From: Bacteroidota bacterium
GTDB taxonomy: Bacteria > Bacteroidota > Ignavibacteria > Palsa-1295
Direction: 5' to 3'
Assembly (NCBI GenBank): GCA_030706745.1
Contig: JAUZNX010000010.1
Location: forward strand, 1 to 64,000
DNA length: 64,000 nucleotides
The notes under the pieces are model-generated. The model made no database searches. It had not been told where the DNA came from and saw nothing but the letters and a program-made list of their open reading frames with translations. This document shows, piece by piece, positions 1-1,980 of this stretch (its first letter is position 1; every line of letters starts with the position of its first letter). Both the position numbers and the translations under genes were made by a program.

Positions 1-1055
1 GATCTGGCTTGTTTGCCTCTCGGCCATGGATCTTATCACTCATAGCCTGACTGCCGGAAAACATCTTAACGGTATTCGGAGTTTGGCTGGGGTTGGTACC
101 GTTGTGACGGCCCTAGCCCAATCAGTGCTCTACCTCCGCAAGACTCTCATCCGACGCTAGCCCTAAAGCTATTTCGGGGAGTACGAGCTATCTCCCAGTT
201 TGATTAGTCTTTCGCCCCTAACCACAGTTCATCGGAGTAGTTTTCAACCCACACCCGTTCGGACCTCCAGTTGGTTTTACCCAACCTTCATCCTGACCAT
301 CCATAGATCACAAGGTTTCGCGTCTACGACCCCATACTATGTTCGCCCTATTCAGACTCGCTTTCGCTACGGATTCGGTTCTGAGAACCTTATCCTTGCA
401 TGAGATCAGTAACTCGTAGGCTCATTAAACAAAAGGCACGCGGTCACTCCTCCATCCGAAGATGGACTCGCTCCCACCGTTTGTAAGCGCGCGGTTTCAG
501 GATCTATTTCACTCCCTTCTTAAGGGTTCTTTTCGCCTTTCCCTCACGGTACTTGTTCACTATCGGTCACTAGAGAGTATTTAGCCTTACGAGATGGTTC
601 TCGCAGATTCCGACAGACTTTCACTTATTCCGTCGTACTCAGGGTACCTCCAGGAGTCATTGAGCATTTCGCGTACGGGACGATCGCCCTCTATGGTGTC
701 TCGTTCCAGAGACTTCCGCTATGCTAATGATTGGTAACTCCTATACGAAGGCCCTACAACCCCTCGCGGTAAAACCGCAAGGTTTGGGCTGTTCCCGTTT
801 CGCTCGCCACTACTCAGGGAATCACGATTGTTTTCTCTTCCTCCGCCTACTTAGATGTTTCAGTTCAGCGGGTTAGCTCGATACGGCTATGTATTCACCG
901 TAACGTACACAGACATTACTCTGTGTGGGTTGTCCCATTCGGAGATCCGGGGATCACAGGCAGCTTCCGCCTACTCCCGGCTTATCGCAGGTAACCACGT
1001 CCTTCATCGCCTTCTAGTGCCAAGGCATCCACCATGCGCTCTTGGTAACTTCATC
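1..1055 (-). rRNA. rrl: 23S ribosomal RNA, 5' part (cut by window start)
   Basis: The minus strand carries the conserved 5' domain of 23S rRNA. The block GGTGGATGCC (complement of 1024-1033) is followed by GGCGATGAAGGACGTG and by further universally conserved 23S segments down to base 1. By analogy with Escherichia coli, where the mature 5' end lies about 22 bases before GGTGGATGCC, the gene starts near 1055. About 1,050 bases of an expected 2,900 are present; the rest lies outside the window. No 16S rRNA or recognisable spacer tRNA precedes it within the next 900 bases. Confidence 0.97.
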
Positions 1056-1587
1056 ATAAACCTATGATACAGTTAGCAGGCTGTCCTGATTCACATCAGA
1101 ACTTACTACTTTTGGTGCATCACTACAGTGTTTGATGATCGTGCAACGTCTCGCGACGCTCCACGAACAGAGATGACGTGCATCGTTGCCGATGCGCTCA
1201 TCTACTTTCTGATCGCGTTTCGCAACGCGTCAGATCCAACTGCAAATATGTCATGCGATCTACACGATTGCTCGTGTCTCTCGCAAAACCTTAGCTCGAT
1301 ACTTGTGTGTATAACTTTCATCCTTGCGGATGATCGTTCTACCCATTTTTTCGCATTTTGATCTTCTTGTGTGCTCTTCGATTTCCCCCTGGGCCGAAGC
1401 CTACTGGAGCCACCGTCGAACATCACCGCTCAGTTGTCAAAGAACTTTTCGCCTCGTAAAGCCTACTGCCTCGCGGCATGAACTTCATCGGCTTGCAGAA
1501 TACACCGGACTCGAACCGGATCGTCACCGTTATTCCTCTTCATTTTGGAGAGGCTTTGGTGACGAGCACCGTGCTATTCCTGGTTTG
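1056..1587 (-). promoter_or_regulatory. 23S rRNA leader with boxA-like antitermination site
   Basis: This is a gene-free stretch between a terminator (1588-1607) and the 23S 5' end. On the minus strand, the complement of 1431-1445 reads GTTCTTTGACAACTG, which closely resembles the boxA antitermination element found in rRNA operon leaders. Transcription of the 23S gene must start downstream of the terminator, so the promoter should lie within this interval; I could not assign a -33/-7 pair with confidence. The rest appears to be leader RNA, possibly the processing-stem side of pre-23S. Confidence 0.6.
1497..1580 (-). other. tRNA-like fold in the 23S leader
   Basis: The minus strand has a perfect 4-bp stem (CCGG/CCGG, 1505-1508 and 1516-1519) closing a 7-base TTCGAGT loop, exactly like a tRNA T-arm. 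It also has an outer pairing GAATA/TATTC and a second hairpin, CGTCACC/GGTGACG (1522-1528 with 1558-1564), topped by CCTCT/AGAGG. There is no recognisable D-arm, no 7-base anticodon loop with U33, and no encoded CCA. It may be a degenerate tRNA left from an ancestral 16S-23S spacer, or simply leader structure. Confidence 0.3.
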
Positions 1588-1607
1588 AAAAACCCCGTTC
1601 GTCGGGG
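1588..1607 (-). terminator. Rho-independent terminator upstream of the 23S leader
   Basis: On the minus strand a 5-bp GC-only stem CCCCG/CGGGG (1593-1597 with 1603-1607) with a 5-base loop is followed by TTTTT (1588-1592). It would stop transcription arriving from the outer-membrane protein gene at 1981-2733 and so isolates the 23S unit. Confidence 0.7.
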
Positions 1608-1647
1608 AAGCGAATAACCCCGGTCGCACACTCAGGGTTCCGAAGCA

Positions 1648-1689
1648 GCACTCGAAATCGCATTATTTTCTCGATTTCTTTCTGAGTGC
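1648..1689. repeat. 13-bp interrupted hairpin
   Basis: GCACTC plus GAAATCG (1648-1660) pairs with CGATTTC plus GAGTGC (1672-1678 and 1684-1689) around an AT-rich loop, leaving a 5-base bulge. It lies in the gap between the 1981-2733 gene and the terminator. No T-tract directly follows on either strand, so it is described as a structure only. Confidence 0.45.
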
Positions 1690-1980
1690 TCGGAGTTTCG
1701 CACTCGCCGCTTTTTCAATTGCGGGGCGTATAACCGGAAGTCGGTCAGCGGCGTTCCGAAGTGTTCAATAATTCTCAAAGATAGCTAAGATTGCTTTCTG
1801 TGAGTCCTCTTGCTCAATCCCAAAACGGACAGTGACGCGAATAATTAAGCAACTGAACCGATCCAGATTCTTGCAAGTCCGATAGGCCGCCGACACGCCG
1901 TTGAAGGTTGATCTAAAGACCACCCTCTTAGGGCAACGCCAACTTTGGATTCATTCAGTGAGTCTATCCTCATCCGGTTT

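Follow-up and report, generated by a model that had tools for sequence, protein, structure and literature searches.

A free-standing 23S-5S rRNA unit in one family of Ignavibacteria-like Bacteroidota, with a putative ECF-type promoter common to its scattered stable RNA genes

A 23S rRNA gene with no 16S rRNA gene in front of it raises the question of whether the operon has really been broken and, if so, how its separate parts could still be expressed together. The DNA analyzed here (the window, 64 kb) comes from the beginning of contig C10, which is 138,871 bases long and belongs to the draft genome G000 (3.81 Mb in 30 contigs, 99.5% complete). The collection used for comparison holds 13 genomes of the family of G000, plus other families of the same class, which is among the Ignavibacteria-like Bacteroidota. 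The 5' part of the 23S gene occupies positions 1-1055 on the minus strand (Rfam RF02541, 913.8 bits, E 4.7e-298, model positions 1-1033); its 5' end is at 1055, and the contig start cuts the gene, so that the 3' end is lost. The rest of the window gave no other Rfam match at gathering scores, and ARAGORN found no tRNA in the window, in agreement with the initial annotation of a 23S gene lacking an upstream 16S. Going upstream from the 23S, the order is a leader of ~550-670 nt, two predicted promoters and then protein genes. The place of the 16S in a linked operon is taken by a protein gene (1981-2733, minus strand), which looks secreted and has no Pfam match.

Locating the 16S in the full genome had been suggested as a check. 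The RNA-model search found none in G000; blastn with the 16S of G002 as query later located it on contig C17, whose last 348 nt (64821-65168) it occupies before running off the contig, while the 23S is on C10. Negatives of the RNA-model search were therefore given no weight from then on. Within the family, a 23S match was obtained in 10 of 13 genomes and a 16S match in nine, that of G003 being only a 79-nt fragment. The two genes share a contig in none of the eight genomes with both (G000, G002, G004, G005, G006, G007, G008, and G009); in addition, G003 has a real 16S leader on C10 and its 23S on C6. The contig sequence upstream of the 23S is free of a 16S match over 137.8 kb in G000, ~228 kb in G002, and ~188 kb in G007. 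By the cut-off of PMC7761764, which calls for a distance of more than 1,500 bp between the 16S and the 23S, G000 has unlinked rRNA genes. Each of the 10 genomes has one 23S match, a count that is subject to the collapse of copies in draft assemblies.

The other parts of the operon were followed in the same way. The tandem tRNA-Ile(GAT) and tRNA-Ala(TGC) genes are kept in all 13 family genomes, away from the 23S, and are on a different contig from it in all 10 genomes with a 23S match. In G002 the distance between the pair and the 16S, which are on opposite strands, is ~12 kb; in G004 a single contig carries the pair and, 54 kb away, the 16S 3' part. A 5S gene lies downstream of the 23S in G007 and G009, the two genomes with a readable 23S 3' end (that of G000 is unreadable). 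Behind the 16S, a hairpin-plus-T terminator was found in six of six family genomes; behind the 5S, one was found in G009 (by script) and in G007 (by eye, because its loop exceeded the limit of the script). As judged from gene order in these assemblies, three units have replaced the single rRNA operon: the 16S, the tRNA-Ile/tRNA-Ala pair and the 23S-5S.

Outside the family, the linked arrangement 16S-tRNAIle-tRNAAla-boxA-23S was found in 11 of the 12 class members with a readable 16S 3' side (G013, G014, G022, G023, G024, G027, G029, G030, G036, G038, and G040, all of other families); G025, G034, and G039, where a contig end cuts the 16S, were left out of the count. On this sample of assemblies, the three-unit break is so far restricted to one family. 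Since the linked and unlinked states occur within one class, the break and the change of promoter described below are directly comparable. The single-contig genome G037 gave no rRNA match; we attribute this to masking or to the limits of the search, not to biology. A separate observation concerns the twelfth readable class member, G033, from another family, in which the 16S (L002, G033:C19) is followed within 1 kb by protein-coding-looking sequence, and neither a spacer tRNA nor a 23S was found behind it; this is possibly a second, independent break.

The leader of the window's 23S is made up of several elements, all on the minus strand. P1 and P2 stand farthest 5', ahead of a small hairpin and a T-arm-like hairpin; next come boxA and a conserved box, CAAGTATCGAGC, and the stalk arm, AACACTGTAGTGATGCA, is the last of them before the 23S. 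The length of the leader, estimated earlier at 530 bases, is close to that value when measured from P2 (~555 nt) and reaches ~670 nt from P1. The predicted promoters, identified by motif comparison, are P1 (1729-1757, GGAAC-N18-GTTATA) and P2 (1613-1641, GGAAC-N18-GTTATT), each with a GC-rich discriminator. The boxA-like site described before was recovered as an antitermination-type boxA, AAAGTTCTTTGACAA, at 1434-1448, and is conserved in all 10 family 23S leaders; the 16S leaders of the family have their own boxA, GTGTTCATTGA (8/8), and in linked relatives boxA follows the last spacer tRNA and precedes the 23S (11/11). The conserved leader box ACACAAGTATCGAGCTAAGG (1289-1308) has the core CAAG[TC]ATCGAGC, and the 5' arm of the 23S processing stalk, ATCAAACACTGTAGTGATGCA, lies at 1116-1136; both cores are present in 10/10 family leaders.

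The terminator of the initial annotation, by contrast with its boxA, did not stand. The sequence CCCCGACGAACGGGG (1593-1607) is a weak hairpin of 5 bp, a terminator scan found 2 in 1040-2900 vs. 1.7 expected, and a stricter scan found none between the upstream gene and P1. Its place just downstream of P2 on the 23S strand makes it the probable 5' hairpin of the 23S transcript. A search of 1040-2900 for sigma-70 promoters of the TTGACA/TATAAT type found none. The claim of a self-standing 23S unit survives the loss of its terminator argument, with support from the predicted promoters, boxA, the processing stalk and the terminators found after the 16S and 5S of relatives.

The 23S stalk was assessed in the two genomes with a readable 3' flank, G007 and G009. 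In both, pairing between the stalk arm and the trailer surpassed that of all 40 shuffles (local test), and 0 of 40 shuffles were at or below the whole-length leader-trailer duplex energy. The whole-length 16S duplex energies were not separated from those of shuffles (3, 0, 0, 18, 13, and 6 of 40 in G002, G009, G007, G008, G004, and G005, respectively); in the local test, where the corresponding shuffle counts were 1, 0, 1, 7, 2, and 1 of 40, the 16S stalk beats all 40 shuffles in one of six genomes only. RNase III (TIGR02191) was identified in 20 of 21 genomes, including G000.

According to our analysis, both rRNA units carry the motif GGAACT-N17/18-GTTATA followed by a GC-rich stretch, exactly or nearly so. 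Its strict form, GAACTN{17,18}GTTATANNNNNCC, gave 15 matches in the 13 genomes vs. 2 for the backward control, and all 15 are located upstream of the 16S (8), the 23S (5), a tRNA-Arg (1) or rpsT (1). The last of these, at G007:C5:1718282 (L248), precedes a gene read from its translation as ribosomal protein S20. The strict form is absent from the 23S of G009 and G011 and from the 16S of G009; under the looser test there are 0-2 mismatches. For the 12-base consensus, the best fits of the G000 23S, G003 23S, and G009 16S were not rare in shuffles (31, 28, and 34 of 300, respectively). The exact shorter motif GGAAC-N17-19-GTT occurs in 10/10 23S leaders (0.30 expected) and in 6/8 16S leaders (0.28 expected), the 16S of G002 and G004 missing it by one mismatch. 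The spacing at the 18 rRNA sites is N18 in 11 and N19 in seven.

This shorter motif, defined on the rRNA sites, was then tested at tRNA genes, with expectations from shuffles. It was found in 15 of 45 distinct 150-nt regions upstream of G000 tRNAs (0.23 expected), in 15 of 34 such cases in G002, G004, G007, and G008 combined (0.17 expected), and in eight of 16 tRNA-Ile/Ala regions of other family members (0.10 expected). The 12-base consensus has 2-3 mismatches upstream of the tRNA pair; the shorter GGAAC..GTT is present there in many genomes. A weight matrix built from the 18 rRNA sites only placed 21 of the 45 G000 tRNAs above the 2% shuffle threshold (0.9 expected) and 24 below it. There are three copies of the shorter motif in the window, two of them being P1 and P2. 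Over 364 kb of G000, mostly stretches chosen for holding tRNAs, the loose motif is not over-represented (19 copies vs. 27 and 27 for two controls), and nine of the 19 copies stand before tRNAs and three before rRNA. Among G000 protein genes it was found at 4/196 (1.0 expected). As the scattered units carry the same unusual type of predicted promoter, similar to those used by stress-type (ECF) sigma factors, they could still be activated in concert.

The primary promoter element of Bacteroidota is TAnnTTTG. In linked relatives it was revealed in eight of nine 16S leaders (1.54 expected; the nine include G033) and in the leaders of tRNA clusters (4/4 in G037 and 3/3 in G027), and GGAAC..GTT was found in 0/9 of the 16S leaders and 0/12 tRNAs. 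In G000, TAnnTTTG precedes 25 of 196 protein genes (5.8 expected). It is at chance level at G000 tRNAs (1/45, 0.92 expected) and in the 23S (1/10, 1.65 expected) and 16S leaders (1/8, 1.46 expected) of the family; the tRNA-Ile/Ala regions of other family members are a counter-case, with 3/16 against 0.50 expected. The occurrence of this element at protein genes and its chance level at stable RNA genes suggest that the primary promoter type persists in G000 and is largely gone from the stable RNA genes.

Based on these results, we propose, with a probability of roughly 0.8, that the window carries the beginning of a free-standing 23S-5S unit of an operon lying in three units, whose parts would be coordinated in trans by an ECF-type factor or one of like specificity. 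The break may have fallen in the old 16S-23S spacer, so that the 23S leader would represent the distal half of that spacer (a tRNA T-arm fossil, boxA and the processing stalk) with new promoters in front. The predicted promoters would be read by an ECF-type sigma factor, or by another factor of that specificity, whose putative targets would be the rRNA units together with many tRNA genes and one or more ribosomal-protein genes, and this would coordinate the scattered parts. At every rRNA unit the boxA would bring in factors for antitermination, and the stalks would be cleaved by RNase III independently of one another. A stronger form of this proposal, which we advance tentatively and at a little under even odds, is that the stable-RNA genes moved as a set from a primary-sigma promoter to one of ECF type, the set comprising the two rRNA units, no less than a third to half of the tRNA loci and one or more ribosomal-protein genes. 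Ribosome production would then have a dedicated ECF sigma factor as its master switch, and trans control may have let the operon fall apart without upsetting the 16S:23S balance.

Three competing explanations were considered. The separation itself could come from misassembly or binning, a chimeric contig having joined the 23S to foreign protein genes with the loss of a linked 16S. The contig start inside the 23S would agree with this, as would the fragmentation of the family assemblies, several of which have rRNA genes at contig ends, and the flanks upstream of the 23S promoter, where a synteny comparison between genomes found hardly any common genes (only a LuxR-type regulator, besides the match within the leader). 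We nevertheless consider such an artefact extremely improbable: the same kind of 23S leader and promoter, with no upstream 16S, recurs in 10 separate assemblies, complete 16S genes with their own terminator lie inside contigs in G002 (60,470 bases) and G009 (59,501 bases), and 11 related genomes of the same collection assemble linked. Our comparison thus supports the unlinked 23S as a family trait and not an assembly fault. As for the origin of the leader, the T-arm-like hairpin TCCGGTTCGAGTCCGGT (1504-1520), seen in seven of seven leaders of two genera (six genomes of the genus of G000 and G009), is a probable fossil of the last spacer tRNA; its distance to boxA (47-73 nt in family leaders) overlaps the range of linked spacers. 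It might instead be a working tRNA-like processing site for RNase P or RNase Z under selection, as its T-loop matches the tRNA consensus in 7/7 leaders with stem changes, and one leader has a weak full-length tRNA-Sec match. A full tRNA fold was tried and rejected: the acceptor stem had seemed convincing on visual inspection, and its pairing proved no better than chance (combined p 0.41). G007, G008, and G011, whose 23S unit is of the same kind, gave no sign of the element. A selected processing site is therefore a rather improbable reading, and a fossil is the one we prefer.

With regard to the promoters, the rRNA genes could be truly unlinked and the motif be an ordinary primary-sigma promoter with drifted -35 and -10 boxes, read by no special sigma factor. 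Primary sigma factors usually serve rRNA genes, and the rRNA sites show GTTATA, with A/T-rich -10 positions. However, the tRNA sites retain only GTT at -10, together with the full GGAAC, and the boxes and their spacing equal an ECF consensus. Moreover, protein genes of the same genome keep TAnnTTTG, so the preference of the primary factor is probably unchanged. Drift of an ordinary promoter thus seems unlikely to us, if still a serious candidate.

Several further observations were made on the same genomes. The window contains an ArgZ-like protein gene (3648-4688, plus strand), which is present only in G000 among the 13 family genomes and whose relatives elsewhere reach up to 57% identity (47-60% among the best 80 listed); it was probably acquired. 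A dispersed palindromic repeat at 61832-61867 is found in dozens of other places in G000, and its arms sit between tRNA-Ile and tRNA-Ala (C3:132994-133087). Pieces of the 16S of 30-79 nt (about nt 1042-1147) were revealed within protein-gene regions, at 8466-8495, 11399-11460, and 17475-17546 of G009:C8 (L124) and at G003:C50:5046-5124. Of the three G009 pieces, two lie where repeated genes for secreted proteins, downstream of the 16S, have their stop codons.

These results touch on the general question of why rRNA operons break and how their pieces stay balanced. A stable-RNA set on an ECF-like promoter, if true, would overturn the assumption that the primary sigma factor makes rRNA. On the practical side, operon-spanning long amplicons would miss the family of G000.

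Unlinked rRNA genes have reportedly been surveyed by Brewer et al. in 2020. Their existence is already described in PMC7761764 and PMC8172020, the former giving 574 unlinked among 15,521 complete genomes and mentioning an earlier survey in which unlinked genomes tend to have fewer RNase III genes. Like the surveyed unlinked genomes, the family has its 16S far from the 23S, with the 23S and 5S together. Unlike them, it has the spacer tRNA pair as a third unit and the GGAAC/GTT promoter, in genomes of 2.2-4.0 Mb, and it keeps RNase III, in contrast to what is a trend and not a definition. The family lies in a class with Ignavibacteria/Bacteroidetes bins, and this lineage is not named in the parts of the survey literature consulted. 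A literature search, with most subscription papers outside its reach, found neither rRNA transcribed from ECF-type promoters nor the family of G000.

Thermus thermophilus, whose rRNA promoters are of the ordinary sigma-70 type, is said to have had its 16S and 23S-5S units described by Hartmann and Erdmann in 1989. Such separate units are also given for this bacterium in PMC6677816, and the family resembles it in this separation and differs in that its motif is ECF-like and also present at tRNAs. Within the class, the TAnnTTTG promoter marks the stable RNA genes of linked relatives and protein genes of G000, as opposed to the family rRNA units and G000 tRNAs. The boxes and spacing of the family's motif are the same as in promoters of Corynebacterium glutamicum SigE/SigH (ECF group 4), GGAAC-N18-19-GTT, which PMC10012870 gives as the consensus of the ECF factor SigE, identical to the mycobacterial one. 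Those C. glutamicum promoters serve stress genes, whereas the family's motif stands at rRNA, tRNA and one ribosomal-protein gene and is followed by a GC-rich discriminator. Overall, unlinked rRNA genes are known from other bacteria, and it is the family-wide switch of promoter at stable RNA genes that appears to be new.
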